DNA from: an uncultured Gammaproteobacteria bacterium
GTDB taxonomy: Bacteria; Pseudomonadota; Gammaproteobacteria; Eutrophobiales; Eutrophobiaceae
Reading direction: 5' to 3'
Length of the DNA stretch: 64,000 bases
Assembly (NCBI GenBank): GCA_938084745.1
Contig: CALKEZ010000019.1
Location: forward strand, 1 to 64,000
The notes beneath the pieces are model-generated. The model did no database searches and was not told the origin of the DNA. It saw only the letters and a list, made by a program, of their open reading frames with translations. Below are positions 19,054 through 25,217 of this stretch, one piece after another. Every line of letters starts with the position of its first letter. Positions within the stretch are counted from its first letter, which is position 1. A program made the translations under genes and the position numbers.

Positions 19054-19128
19054 ATGAAATGGGAAACTCCAGAATATAGTGACATTCGTTTTGGCTTCGA
19101 AGTCACCATGTACATCAACAACAAGTAA
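19054..19128 (+). CDS. pqqA: PQQ precursor peptide PqqA
   Basis: A 24-residue peptide, MKWETPEYSDIRFGFEVTMY followed by INNK. The Glu16 and Tyr20 of the E-x-x-x-Y motif are the two residues cross-linked by the radical SAM enzyme PqqE (with chaperone PqqD) to build pyrroloquinoline quinone; the surrounding FEVTMY is the family core. The ATG has a GAGGAG site nine bases upstream. No pqqB, C, D or E is nearby; a strong terminator follows within 21 bases, so it is transcribed alone. The product would supply the PQQ for the dehydrogenase at the left edge. Confidence 0.96.
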   Translation: MKWETPEYSDIRFGFEVTMYINNK

Positions 19129-19777: not shown

Positions 19778-19955
19778 AATATGTCTTACACCTCTTGATT
19801 AGGTACAAAATGAATAAAGTAACATTCTAGCATTTGGTGATTAATATCAGGATAATACTATCTAAAGACAATATTTGGCAGTATATGACCGGTCATTTTT
19901 TAAATCTTTACTAATAAATGCCACGGAGGATTTGAATCAGGTTCAATCTAGACTA

Positions 19956-20516
19956 ATGCGTATTATCTATATTTACATTACTTCACTGGTACTTTTACTT
20001 TCATACACATCATTAGCTCATGCCGGTGAGTATCAACTATTAGTCTCTAAGAAAAAGAATGAGCTTATTGTCGAAAAAAACGGTCAACTAATTAAAAAAT
20101 ATCATATTGCAAGCGGTAAAGGCGGAAAAGGCACCAAGCGTTTGCGCGGTGATAGCAAAACACCACTTGGCATATATCGAGTTGCCAGCTTCAAGGAAAG
20201 TAGTCGCTTTCATTATTTTATACAATTGGACTATCCTAATTTGATAGATGCATGGTATGGATACAAAAATGAAATTATTGATGCCGGAAATTTTAAACGC
20301 ATTGCGGCAGCCTACAAAAAACAAGAAACACCACCGCAGGATACCGAGTTGGGCGGGTTTATAGGTATTCACGGCCTAGGTATAACCAATGATGAGAAAC
20401 TTACCATACATCACGCACTCAACTGGACTGAAGGTTGTATTGCATTAACAAATGAAGAACTCAATGATCTTAAAAACTATGTGACCATTGGCACCTCAGT
20501 CATAATCAAAGAATAA
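19956..20516 (+). CDS. L,D-transpeptidase (YkuD family)
   Basis: A 186-residue periplasmic enzyme that forms 3-3 peptidoglycan cross-links or attaches proteins to the wall. A signal peptide (cut after AHA, about residue 23) follows the ATG at 19956; an upstream TTG at 19875 would place 27 charged residues before it and is less likely. The YkuD domain has GIHGLG and the catalytic segment HHALNWTEGCIAL with the nucleophile Cys near residue 164. It may head the operon of the lipoprotein and channel genes that follow on the same strand after 61 bases. Confidence 0.88.
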   Translation: MRIIYIYITSLVLLLSYTSLAHAGEYQLLVSKKKNELIVEKNGQLIKKYHIASGKGGKGTKRLRGDSKTPLGIYRVASFKESSRFHYFIQLDYPNLIDAWYGYKNEIIDAGNFKRIAAAYKKQETPPQDTELGGFIGIHGLGITNDEKLTIHHALNWTEGCIALTNEELNDLKNYVTIGTSVIIKE

Positions 20517-20577: not shown

Positions 20578-21060
20578 ATGATTTTTAATGACCAACTATT
20601 AAGGATTTTATCTCCTTGTTTATTCATTCTACTTGTTGGATGTACAAATGATTTTGAACAGATTTACGAGAAAACAACAAAGAAAACTTTCCAGGATGTT
20701 GTACAGGATACTGAATTCGTCATCACGGAAAATAATTTCCGCATCACCAATCGTTTACACATAGGCGCTGCTATTCAAGAACGAGGAAACCTGGAGTTTC
20801 CAAAAAACGAGCTCATTTTGTTTTGTAACCTGACCTTGGCAGAAGGGATGCTAGAGATTGAACCTCGTTATATAAATTATTGTCCATACAAAATATCAAT
20901 TACTGAGTCAGATGAATATATAACGGTAGGAACACGACTTTTACCACCCAAAACGGACAATCCGAAAATGGATGAATTAGCTAAAAACATTAATAAAATA
21001 CTCCGCTCAATGGTAGAATATGCGGCATCCGAAGACCCATTTATTCTTGAACCAAATTAA
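20578..21060 (+). CDS. DUF302-like lipoprotein
   Basis: A 160-residue predicted lipoprotein with lipobox LLVGC (C22). The mature part resembles the DUF302 fold: a segment TEFVITENNFRITNRLHIG, then LILFCNLTLAEGMLEIEP, then YCPYKISI. DUF302 proteins are small alpha/beta domains with no agreed function. No clear ribosome site precedes the ATG, so the start is less sure. It is 18 bases upstream of the channel gene and probably in its operon. Confidence 0.65.
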   Translation: MIFNDQLLRILSPCLFILLVGCTNDFEQIYEKTTKKTFQDVVQDTEFVITENNFRITNRLHIGAAIQERGNLEFPKNELILFCNLTLAEGMLEIEPRYINYCPYKISITESDEYITVGTRLLPPKTDNPKMDELAKNINKILRSMVEYAASEDPFILEPN

Positions 21061-21078
21061 TTAGGGTGCGCATTTATA

Positions 21079-21822
21079 ATGAAACAACAACCTGAACATA
21101 TTTTATTGCTCAGATGGCTTATTTTGACCGGGCTAATCGTATTCGCATTAATCATCACCTGGAATGAGGGTATTGTTTCCTCACTGTTTAGCGTTGATCA
21201 AAGCAAAATCTGCTGGGTTATTGCATTAATCTATATGATGGTCACGCTACATTGCGCAAGAAGAATCTATACGCTTTCTCTACAAACAAACCTGTCCAGA
21301 GAAGTCGATAACATCATTAAACAAGAAAGCAAAATTGATCTGACTATAAATGATGAGGACGTTTATGTTAACTCAAACATCAAACTACCCCATTGTTTCA
21401 TGACTGAATATATCAGAGACCTTCATTACCGATACAACAATAAAACTAATCCAGAAGAAGTCGGCTCTTCATCCGATTTAATAGATGTCTATGAATCTCG
21501 ATTAAAAGGTCCACAGGAAATTGGCTGGTTTGTCTCCGACATGATGTTAAAACTTGGATTACTTGGCACAATTATCGGATTTATATTTATGCTGGCATCT
21601 GTTGCTAATATCGCCGATTTTGATGTCAGTGGTATGCAACAGATTTTAAAGCATATGAGCAATGGAATGGGCACGGCATTATACACAACCCTTGCCGGGC
21701 TCATCTGCAGTATTCTGGCCGCTACACAATATCATATGCTCGACAGACACGCCGACGAGCTTATCGAGTTAACACGTCATTTGACACAAGTCCATGTCAT
21801 TCCAAAAATCAGTGGAAACTAA
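21079..21822 (+). CDS. MotA/TolQ/ExbB-like proton-channel membrane protein
   Basis: A 247-residue protein with four predicted helices (about 10-28, 43-63, 154-178, 197-221) and a cytoplasmic segment of about 90 residues between helices 2 and 3. Helices 3 and 4 carry the family marks: LGLLGTIIGFIFML and NGMGTALYTTLAGLICS. Such proteins form a pentamer around a dimer of a MotB/TolR/ExbD partner and use the ion gradient for mechanical work. The partner gene starts seven bases after this stop. The order is like motAB, tolQR or exbBD, but I cannot place it in any of these. Confidence 0.85.
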   Translation: MKQQPEHILLLRWLILTGLIVFALIITWNEGIVSSLFSVDQSKICWVIALIYMMVTLHCARRIYTLSLQTNLSREVDNIIKQESKIDLTINDEDVYVNSNIKLPHCFMTEYIRDLHYRYNNKTNPEEVGSSSDLIDVYESRLKGPQEIGWFVSDMMLKLGLLGTIIGFIFMLASVANIADFDVSGMQQILKHMSNGMGTALYTTLAGLICSILAATQYHMLDRHADELIELTRHLTQVHVIPKISGN

Positions 21823-21829
21823 TTAAGTA

Positions 21830-22423
21830 ATGAGCGTTAAAGATCGTCTTCGCTCAGACCCGTTTACAGATCTGCTCTTTAACGCACTTCTGGGGTTCAC
21901 CTTTTTATTTCTGGTTGCCATCATGTTTATGAACCCGGAAGCAAAATCGGGCATTATTGATCCAAAAGCCGAATATATATTAACGATTACCTGGGAGGAC
22001 AATAGTCCGGATGATGTAGATGTCTGGGTGGAAGATCCGGAAGGTCAAATACTCTGGTTCAGAACTCCGGAAGCCGGCTTGTTACATCTTGACCGTGATG
22101 ACCGAGGCTTGGTAAATGATACGATTACAATCAATGGTGAAGAATTACAAAACCCACTAAATCAGGAAGTCGTCACATTACGTGGTATTGTAAAAGGCGA
22201 ATACATAGTCAACCTCCACTATTATGCTTCTGAAACAGGTAAACCGGTTGATGTGAATGTGCGCTTGGTTAAAGTAAATCCTAAACTGGAAGTAGTTTAC
22301 TATGGAACTGTGAATCTTGAAAAAAGAGGCGATGAAAAAACGGCATTACGATTTAAAATTGGTGCTGACGGCAATGTCTATGGGATCAACTTCCTGCCAA
22401 AATCTCTTGTCGAACTGGGTTAA
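21830..22423 (+). CDS. MotB/TolR-like protein with an unusual periplasmic beta domain
   Basis: A 197-residue protein with a short cytoplasmic start, one helix (about 15-34) and a periplasmic part. The helix begins PFTDLLFNALLGFTFLF, where D14 sits as the proton-binding Asp does in MotB, TolR and ExbD. In place of an OmpA-like wall-binding domain it has a beta-rich region beginning ILTITWEDN, with the segment VDVWVEDPEGQ, which resembles the YfaP/DUF2135 type of extracellular domain. It directly follows the channel gene. Function is inferred: force-transmitting subunit of the channel. Confidence 0.75.
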   Translation: MSVKDRLRSDPFTDLLFNALLGFTFLFLVAIMFMNPEAKSGIIDPKAEYILTITWEDNSPDDVDVWVEDPEGQILWFRTPEAGLLHLDRDDRGLVNDTITINGEELQNPLNQEVVTLRGIVKGEYIVNLHYYASETGKPVDVNVRLVKVNPKLEVVYYGTVNLEKRGDEKTALRFKIGADGNVYGINFLPKSLVELG

Positions 22424-22450
22424 ACAAATAATCATATTGGAGAAAATATT

Positions 22451-22963
22451 GTGATACTGGGTATAACTGGCATTATTTCAGCCTATATTTTAATTGGCTT
22501 GCTCCTGCTTAGCATAAATCTTTATTCTAATTGGTCCTGGAAGGTTAAGGCTGCGACGATCATTATTACATCTGCATTTTATGTCATCACATATTTTTCT
22601 TTCCCGCCATTGTTAGGCTGGCCGACGACTGAATATCTGCCATCACAGTTTCGTCTGATATCAGCACATGTGGTTCAACCCAACAAAGAAACCGGAGAAG
22701 ACGGTTCGATTTACCTCTGGCTATCAGAAATAGAAAATATGGCCAGTTCGTCCGAACCCAGGGCCTATGAGCTGGAATATTCCAATGAACTGCATGAGAA
22801 AATCATCAATGTTAAGGCTAAACTTGATAAAGACATTGCACAACTGGGTGAGTTTAAAGAACCTGATGATACGTTTAATCAGGTAGATGAACAAAGACGC
22901 GGGGTAAAATCAGTGCATATCGAGTTTTACGATTTACCAGATCCACTCTTTCCTGATAAATAG
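22451..22963 (+). CDS. Two-helix membrane protein of unknown function
   Basis: A 170-residue protein starting with GTG (GGAG eight bases upstream, no other start before residue 97). Two helices at about 3-25 and 33-51 are followed by a soluble region of about 115 residues that should be periplasmic or cytoplasmic depending on topology. The soluble part contains an LRISAHVVQ-like opening, a SIYLWLSEIENM stretch, and an acidic/basic section near the end. No family was recognised. It sits between the MotB-like gene and the vWA-FHA gene with spacings of 27 and 14 bases, so belongs to their operon. Confidence 0.75.
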   Translation: MILGITGIISAYILIGLLLLSINLYSNWSWKVKAATIIITSAFYVITYFSFPPLLGWPTTEYLPSQFRLISAHVVQPNKETGEDGSIYLWLSEIENMASSSEPRAYELEYSNELHEKIINVKAKLDKDIAQLGEFKEPDDTFNQVDEQRRGVKSVHIEFYDLPDPLFPDK

Positions 22964-22977
22964 AAGGCCGCAATTTC

Positions 22978-24486
22978 TTGAACAGGAATTCACCCCTAAC
23001 ACTCATAATATTCTTTTTATGCCTGTCCGTATTGAGCAGACATGTATTGGCATGGAACACATTAACCGACGGAATTGACATTAACTGTCAACAAACCACC
23101 AAGCTTCTGGACTGTACATACAGGAGCTTAACAACGGATCCGGAACCCGAAATATCCGCACGTTCAAATGACACCACTCTTCAGGTCAGTCAGTTAACCC
23201 TGTTTCCACAAAAGGATGATACGACTGCCATCCTGTTTTTAGTGGATACAAGTGACCCAAATAGACAGAATGTTATTGAAAAAAACAAACTCCAGATAAA
23301 AGAACTGTTGAGTGAACTCAAACCACATCACAAAGCAGGGCTGGCATCATTTGATAAATCCATACGTTTTATATCGCCATTAGGAACATCAACGTTTTTA
23401 CTTTCAAAATCAGTTGACTCGCTAAACGCCACTGGAAAAACAACTGAACTGTATCTCAATTTGATCAAGGCCATTGACAGTCTCACGTCATTTAGCGCAA
23501 AAAGAAAACTAATTATTCTGTTCTCTGATGGTCAGGCAGAAGACAAAGCTTACTTTCATTCAGATGTAATCAACGCGGCGAGAAAATCAGGAGTAGTTAT
23601 CAATTCGATCGGCTATCCCCGCTCGGTTTCATTATCAGTTGCATTACAAACTATCCGAAGATTAAGTGAAGAAACTGGTGGCAATTATATTGAAACTGAT
23701 ATGAGCTACAACTTGCCGATAATCAAATTAAAATCACTGCTCGACAATATGGATAATGGCGGCACATTTTCGGTGGCTCTGGATGAGCTTTACCGGAAAA
23801 ACCTGCCTTCAGATAAAGTAAGCCTGATTTTCAAAAGCAAACACGAGACAAAGAGCATTACTGTTCCTGTCAATATAAAAGTTACAAAACAAGCCGTACC
23901 GAGCCGACCTGAGAACACCAATACCGTTATTGAATCTGCCCGGCAATTGACATCAAATAATAATCCACCGATTCAAATCATCACAAAACAACCTGATAAC
24001 GAGGCCATTAACTTATGGCTCTGGTATGGCCTTCCAGCGGCCTTTATTATTATTATTATTTTCATTTTAATTACATTATTTCTACTATGGAATCGACGCC
24101 CCCAATCTTCCGACGATGCCAGCAACAACTATAGACCTTATGCCTATCTAATTGCAGATGATGGTAAAGAAACCCGGTATCCGATAACGCGAACAATTTG
24201 GCGAATTGGTCGAAGTAAAGATAATGAATTAACACTCAATGACACGTCACTTTCCAGACGACATGCCGAGATTCATAGAAATAATAATGGTACGTTTGAT
24301 ATTATTGACTTGAACTCAATGAATGGTGTTTACATTAATAATGAAAAGATCGGAAAGGCAGAATTGCATGAGGGAGACATTGTCGAGATTGGAGATATAT
24401 TTTTACGCTTTACACTACTTGCTTCTGATTATTCACTAGAGGAATCGACCGTAATGCAAAAGACAAAAGTGCCCATTACACATTAA
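22978..24486 (+). CDS. Periplasmic vWA / transmembrane / cytoplasmic FHA protein
   Basis: A 502-residue protein. Signal peptide 1-24; vWA-like domain about 82-240 with a partly kept metal site (D90-T-S-D-P, T155/156, D184-G); a beta region; one helix (346-371); then an FHA domain (408-478) with GRS (411), SRRH (426-429) and NSMNG (446-450), the phosphothreonine-binding pattern. The vWA should face the periplasm and FHA the cytoplasm. The start is TTG with AGAAGG 10 bases upstream; no ATG fits the signal peptide. The tail EESTVMQKT has threonines that a kinase could modify. Last gene of the channel operon. Confidence 0.85.
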   Translation: MNRNSPLTLIIFFLCLSVLSRHVLAWNTLTDGIDINCQQTTKLLDCTYRSLTTDPEPEISARSNDTTLQVSQLTLFPQKDDTTAILFLVDTSDPNRQNVIEKNKLQIKELLSELKPHHKAGLASFDKSIRFISPLGTSTFLLSKSVDSLNATGKTTELYLNLIKAIDSLTSFSAKRKLIILFSDGQAEDKAYFHSDVINAARKSGVVINSIGYPRSVSLSVALQTIRRLSEETGGNYIETDMSYNLPIIKLKSLLDNMDNGGTFSVALDELYRKNLPSDKVSLIFKSKHETKSITVPVNIKVTKQAVPSRPENTNTVIESARQLTSNNNPPIQIITKQPDNEAINLWLWYGLPAAFIIIIIFILITLFLLWNRRPQSSDDASNNYRPYAYLIADDGKETRYPITRTIWRIGRSKDNELTLNDTSLSRRHAEIHRNNNGTFDIIDLNSMNGVYINNEKIGKAELHEGDIVEIGDIFLRFTLLASDYSLEESTVMQKTKVPITH

Positions 24487-24494
24487 CTTTTATC

Positions 24495-25217
24495 TTAAAG
24501 TACGGGCCGGGTCATTTTAATATAATCATTGATCAAGTCTGTTATCGCTGATTCTGTTAACAAGGAATCTTCCTCACCAAACCACTCTGCCTTATTCTGC
24601 ATAATAAGGCTTGTTAATTTATCAATCTCAACGCCACCCTTGTTATTGAAACATTGCTTCGGTGCATTAATCAATAAAGATATAGCAGCACCCAGCACAA
24701 TCTCTCTATGACGATGATATGCAGCATTATGTGCTTCTTCATTACGGGCATGAACCGGATTATTATCAAGCTTCACTGTTTGCATAACAAAACCCATTAG
24801 TGCATCAAACTCTGGAGGTACAGGTACTCGACTCACGGTTGCCCAACGATAGAGTTCAACCGGTTTAATTTCCCACTCGCCAGAGGGTTTTTCTATATTA
24901 ATAACTGACAATATATTTTTTTGAATACAGCCATGCGCATGTTCCCATAAGTCCTGTACTTTCGTGGCATCATTATTATCTATAGCAACGGGTGAATCCG
25001 GGTTAATACCTAATAATAACGGTATCCCCTCCGTCTGGATCACCCATGTCTCCTTACATAGCCATTTTTCATAGAGCTTTTGTAATCTTAGCCTCTCTGT
25101 ATCATAGACAAGTTTTTCACGTTCCTTCATCGTCATTGGTTCAACCGAAACAGATGCGGCTTTAGGATCCAGTTTAGCTGGAGAGAGAAAAGCTTTAATT
25201 TTATTTATTATAGTCAT
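24495..25217 (-). CDS. Conserved hypothetical cytoplasmic protein
   Basis: A 240-residue soluble protein, no signal or membrane helix. It starts with a basic amphipathic stretch and has a C-terminal helical part with HRHREIVLGAAISLL (168-182) and QCF. I do not recognise a family. It ends eight bases from the vWA-FHA stop on the opposite strand, and its ATG follows the DUF455 stop by 15 bases, so it is cotranscribed with the DUF455 gene. Confidence 0.65.
   Translation of the reverse strand: MTIINKIKAFLSPAKLDPKAASVSVEPMTMKEREKLVYDTERLRLQKLYEKWLCKETWVIQTEGIPLLLGINPDSPVAIDNNDATKVQDLWEHAHGCIQKNILSVINIEKPSGEWEIKPVELYRWATVSRVPVPPEFDALMGFVMQTVKLDNNPVHARNEEAHNAAYHRHREIVLGAAISLLINAPKQCFNNKGGVEIDKLTSLIMQNKAEWFGEEDSLLTESAITDLINDYIKMTRPVL

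Follow-up and report, generated by a model that had tools for sequence, protein, structure and literature searches.

What kind of machine is encoded by a compact gammaproteobacterial gene cluster in which a MotA-like channel gene is followed by genes for a MotB-like partner, a small membrane protein and a receptor with vWA and FHA domains? The cluster lies in the window analysed here, a 64,000-nucleotide stretch of DNA from an uncultured gammaproteobacterium (contig CALKEZ010000019.1). The open reading frames at 21079-24486 agree with the four tightly packed genes of the original prediction, with gaps of 7, 27 and 14 bases; the span assigned to them (20578-24486), however, covers a fifth gene, which encodes a DUF302 lipoprotein and ends 18 bases upstream of the MotA-like gene. 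The features of the locus are as follows, type 1 being the form of the cluster found in the window.

19054-19128, forward strand: orphan pqqA, PQQ precursor peptide MKWETPEYSDIRFGFEVTMYINNK, read from the sequence
19875-20516, forward strand: L,D-transpeptidase-like protein (YkuD; PF03734, E=3e-18), type-1 accessory
20578-21060, forward strand: DUF302 lipoprotein (PF03625, E=3e-9; lipobox-like LLVGC), type-1 accessory
21079-21822, forward strand: P2, MotA/TolQ/ExbB-like channel subunit of 247 residues (PF01618 MotA_ExbB, E=6e-11), core gene 1
21830-22423, forward strand: P3, ExbD/MotB-like partner of 197 residues (no Pfam family), core gene 2
22451-22963, forward strand: P4, two-TM protein of 170 residues with a GTG start (no Pfam family), core gene 3
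22978-24486, forward strand: vWA-TM-FHA protein of 502 residues with a TTG start (VWA, E=4e-11; FHA, E=1e-20), type-1 adaptor

The PF01618 match of P2 exceeds the gathering score. The best named model for the L,D-transpeptidase is LdtF/DpaA/YafK (E=2e-11, far under that model's cut-off), and the protein keeps the conserved H and the TxGC motif. Convergent to the cluster is a conserved 240-residue gene (24495-25217), which occupies the same position in ∼17 relatives (cluster c21).

Hydropathy gives approximately four TM helices for P2, one for P3, two for P4 and, in the vWA-TM-FHA protein, one that follows a signal peptide, as had been predicted. P2 aligns to TolQ, with GLLGT and ALYTT corresponding to GLFGT and ALIAT of TolQ, and its ring threonines T165 and T205 are conserved in 96% and 100% of 97 aligned rows, respectively. 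The single TM helix of P3 carries Asp10 and Asp14 (100% and 93% conserved in 92 rows) and is accompanied by a periplasmic beta domain, in which R89, D90, D91 and G93 are invariant; this RDDxG motif could, at a guess, be a Ca2+ or lanthanide binder. A mediocre AlphaFold2 model of P3 (pLDDT 66) places the helix at residues 11–34, followed by the beta domain. The P3 sequence PFTD was aligned to PFID of ExbD at a very low score, no PF02472 or MotB profile match was obtained, and comparison with E. coli MotB, TolR and ExbD by hhalign gave probabilities <1%. A Pfam search recognized no peptidoglycan-binding domain in P3, Foldseek of P3 against the PDB and viral models returned nothing at E<0.001, and a PHROGs search gave no informative match. 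In three P3 variants (L027, L030 and L034) FDPxxA replaces DPFTD and, since Asp14 is lost and only Asp10 is kept, the proton site may have shifted by one helix turn. The AlphaFold2 model of P4 (pLDDT 83.5) comprises two TM helices and a small beta-beta-beta-alpha-beta-beta domain of OB-like order; Foldseek of P4 gave nothing at E<0.001, although many of the weak matches are OB folds, and the C-terminus carries a conserved DLPDPxxPEK motif (53-sequence alignment). The proposal of a candidate undescribed ion-channel/MotB-like pair with conserved partners is borne out by these data, and the assignment of P2, P3 and P4 as a motor is well supported.

Co-occurrence across genomes had been set beforehand as the test of whether these genes form a system, and P2, P3 and P4 do recur together with their partners. 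In the genome collection the three genes adjoin in 78 of 80 loci, mainly from Gammaproteobacteria and Alphaproteobacteria, and the remaining two loci lie at contig ends. P3, the most conserved of the core proteins, was found in 32 of the 58 relatives searched, and tblastn revealed the same order (L,D-transpeptidase, DUF302, P2, P3, P4, vWA/FHA) in most of the relatives that have it. Because gene order is kept across genera over which P3 identity ranges from 62 to 96%, the cluster is beyond chance. A plasmid search found no plasmid copies of the core. The core is P2-P3-P4 and not the FHA/vWA arm: vWA together with FHA is present in 25 of the 80 loci and FHA without vWA in four, and several type-1 loci have neither.

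Two forms of the cluster can be distinguished. Type 1, the gammaproteobacterial form seen in the window, combines the core with the L,D-transpeptidase, the DUF302 lipoprotein and often the FHA protein, and it adjoins tilS-accA-dnaE-like genes (named by inspection). Type 2 consists of the core followed by a DUF3108-like lipoprotein (cluster c3, 40 loci). A lipobox-like motif is present in 38 of 42 type-2 DUF3108-like proteins, mostly with Ser at position +2, an outer-membrane-type sorting signal. The source genome (G000) itself contains a second, paralogous core copy of type 2 (G000:C17:90921-91490). In a congener, G003, the two types of cluster are separated by a distinct operon of DUF3450/ExbB/ExbD/TonB/TPR-like genes, identified by reading the sequence (L131 1005-5991).

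The distribution of the motor is closely associated with that of pyrroloquinoline quinone (PQQ) metabolism. Of 397 genomes sampled evenly from the phylum, 17 have a strong P3, and pqqC was above the cut-off in 16/17 strong-P3 genomes versus 61/380 others (Fisher p=1e-11). These counts are non-independent, as a single family (f71) supplies 11 of the 17 carriers. Counted by genus, the values are 7/8 for P3 carriers versus 44/215 for others (p=2e-4). Among the relatives, pqqC is found in 30/32 with P3 versus 5/26 without it and the methanol-type PQQ alcohol dehydrogenase (TIGR03075) in 31/32 versus 9/26. Of another 39 carriers, 27 have pqqC, among them marine alphaproteobacteria with genomes of ∼1.3 Mb. 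Carriers that lack pqqC (G272, G476 and G482) still have the PQQ alcohol dehydrogenase, while one genome (G027) has a type-1 cluster and pqqC yet no TIGR03075 dehydrogenase at E<1e-80. Most pqqC-containing genomes (61/77) are without the motor, and PQQ metabolism in general therefore does not depend on it.

The association extends to physical linkage. The type-2 P3 gene lies 3–30 kb from a PQQ alcohol dehydrogenase gene in 12 genomes from several families (G000, G003, G006, G007, G016, G017, G075, G272, G287, G316, G443 and G445), and type-2 neighbours include a SoxYZ-like carrier (TIGR04557), a quinoprotein-relay hydrolase (TIGR04558) and PQQ_CXXCW (TIGR03865). One contig of G003 carries pqqC, the dehydrogenase gene and both types of cluster within ∼60 kb. 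The G003 and G000 dehydrogenases contain WDYDG, the lanthanide-type (XoxF) motif. The literature searched yielded no report that connects XoxF with a motor of this kind, and the XoxF/ExbB paper that was checked concerned an ordinary Ton system. A near-identical orphan pqqA occurs on the same strand upstream of 19 of the 29 type-1 loci with enough flanking sequence. The pqqA of the window has no adjoining pqqB-E, and this genome has its pqqC elsewhere, on contig C17. The chief reservation about the PQQ association is that related genomes are not independent of one another; nevertheless, simple shared ancestry is made less likely by its repeated appearance in several families and by the physical linkage.

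The trio is also found in reduced form in phages, including Rhizobium phage 16-3 (p038, p040 and p042) and RHph_N3_13, and in several environmental viral contigs (phage trio loci L138 5259-7120, L139 4524-6031, L140-L142 and L144), in some of which it is located among late structural genes. The phage P3 homologues have a single TM Asp, at the position equivalent to D14. A viral scan with the A1 profile matched five contigs, while one with the N3_13 phage P3 as lone query found nothing. In the P3 tree (midpoint root, long branches) the main bacterial group does not include the phage rows. A prophage-like locus in G235 (L125 5711-8633) has the trio with a trypsin-like protease gene and, by inspection, with lysozyme- and holin-like genes nearby; a role in lysis or superinfection is possible there. 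Neither the phage copies nor a divergent trio in G158, which lacks pqqC, are linked to PQQ. The motor is thus a general one of which the PQQ-linked clade represents one use, and action on quinoproteins need not be a property of the motor as such.

With moderate confidence, we propose that P2-P3-P4 constitutes a new 5:2-type proton motor family that mainly serves periplasmic quinoprotein dehydrogenases and has, in type 1, an FHA/vWA control arm. Beside the observed gene content, residue conservation and PQQ co-occurrence and linkage, we infer a stoichiometry, proton use, force transmission, a step that is served and phospho-control. A P3 dimer would sit inside a ring of five MotA-like subunits, and protons carried by its TM Asp14 past the ring threonines would make its periplasmic beta domain turn. 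The work would then be relayed by P4 to the outer-membrane-type DUF3108-like lipoprotein in type 2, and to the DUF302 lipoprotein and the wall enzyme in type 1, in which the vWA-TM-FHA protein would link the motor to Thr phosphorylation in the cytoplasm. The system served in most carriers would be that of the periplasmic PQQ-dependent alcohol dehydrogenase, where the motor would most likely drive an energy-dependent step in quinoprotein maturation or in the handling of PQQ or metal across the envelope. A rotary proton motor dedicated to PQQ/lanthanide alcohol oxidation, which moves or inserts the cofactor or metal, is gated by Thr phosphorylation in some lineages and is used by phages as the same trio on the host envelope, is conceivable but clearly more doubtful. 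To our knowledge, neither the exit of PQQ from the cytoplasm nor the loading of PQQ and metal into periplasmic quinoproteins has been fully explained. The proposal makes an overlooked energy-using step in PQQ-dependent alcohol metabolism testable via concrete genes, points to a motor that tracks quinoproteins in distant lineages, even in the streamlined genomes above, and would add a 5:2-type motor family that has an unfamiliar rotor domain and is also phage-borne.

The best-surviving alternative is that the trio is a general, Tol-Pal-like motor for envelope maintenance that shares only lineages and neighbourhoods with PQQ metabolism. The tilS-accA-dnaE-like genes and L,D-transpeptidase beside type 1, the lipoprotein partners, and the phage and G158 copies without PQQ are all consistent with such a function. 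We nonetheless consider it rather unlikely, as several families, and streamlined genomes too, show the PQQ association, there is physical linkage to dehydrogenase, pqqA and quinoprotein-relay genes, and carriers that lack pqqC retain the dehydrogenase.

The original prediction had FHA/vWA signalling as the core, with cytoplasmic threonine kinases directing work on the wall and lipoproteins. The last protein of the cluster has a signal peptide, a vWA domain (residues 85–239), a TM helix (352–370) and an FHA domain (408–472). Seven FHA residues (G409, R410, S422, S424, H427, N447 and G448, L040 numbering) are 100% conserved in 30 homologues and correspond to the phosphothreonine-ligand set (G-R, S-x-x-H and N-G). 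There is a conserved Thr in the tail that follows the FHA domain, the L,D-transpeptidase and DUF302 genes are in the operon, and the 2.2-Mb gammaproteobacterial genome G000 has 12 Ser/Thr protein kinase (Pkinase) matches. The vWA domain keeps the D-x-S, T and SDG positions, and its metal binding may be altered because Pro replaces the last Ser of DxSxS. However, over half of the loci, including many of type 1, lack the FHA/vWA arm, as does the type-2 paralogous cluster, and some relatives have a last protein reduced to TM-FHA with the vWA domain gone. As the core of the system, this arm is quite unlikely.

The trio could also act with neither rotation nor force, as a channel or sensor through which periplasmic oxidation would be informed of the proton gradient. 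The short periplasmic domains and a P3 that has no recognized peptidoglycan-binding domain would be compatible with this, but it is very unlikely, given that known motors have the same set of MotA, Asp helix and Thr ring. A Zorya-type anti-phage defence system is scarcely credible, as originally judged, since the matches to ZorA are weak and confined to the channel subunit (best E=1e-5), which at 247 residues is far shorter than the ZorA models, while the other four cluster proteins gave no ZorB, ZorC, ZorD or ZorE match and the locus is fixed, conserved and without plasmid copies; lacking the set of a long ZorA-type channel, ZorB and ZorC/D/E, the cluster was rejected as Zorya.

No paper on the cluster was found in the literature searched, mainly openly available papers, and it is apparently undescribed; parts of it resemble known systems. 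P3 has a DxDxxV..P.G......LDxD signature like that of DUF2135 (PF09906), to which 5 of 16 P3 members gave weak, sub-threshold matches (best E=0.0037) and the window P3 none; the Asp helix lies outside DUF2135, and no literature was found that pairs this domain with MotA. The MxaRSACKLD system likewise involves membrane vWA proteins tied to a PQQ dehydrogenase, which serve PQQ methanol dehydrogenase and are thought to insert metal, but the Mxa accessory proteins use a MoxR ATPase and a DUF58 protein and not a MotA-type motor.

Force transducers with vWA domains adjoin TolQ-like motors in proteobacteria; these vWA proteins either begin with a helix like that of TolA/TonB or provide the Asp helix themselves (PMC12204202). 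In the window, by contrast, the Asp helix belongs to a separate protein, the vWA domain comes after a signal peptide, and the FHA domain beyond the TM helix is cytoplasmic; the window vWA has no fused N-terminal motor-binding or trans-pore helix, and the passages of PMC12204202 consulted name no PQQ, methanol or P3-type partner. It is doubtful that FHA receptors are absent from ion-driven systems, as was asserted, in view of the AglRQS-Glt gliding machinery of Myxococcus, a MotA/TolQ-like motor in which the FHA-type TM protein GltG is reported to interact with AglR (PMC3169522). The NCBIfam GltG model matches the window FHA over ∼96 of 650 positions, but only the FHA matches, no other Glt genes were seen in the cluster, and no PQQ link is reported for the gliding machinery. 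TolQ-TolR, ExbB-ExbD and MotA-MotB differ in that P3 is not PF02472 or MotB by profile and has the RDDxG beta domain, and in that the window operon has P4 as a fixed third gene and no TolA, TonB, TolB or Pal. The cluster nevertheless shares with these three motors a PF01618 channel, two ring threonines and a single-TM partner that carries the Asp.
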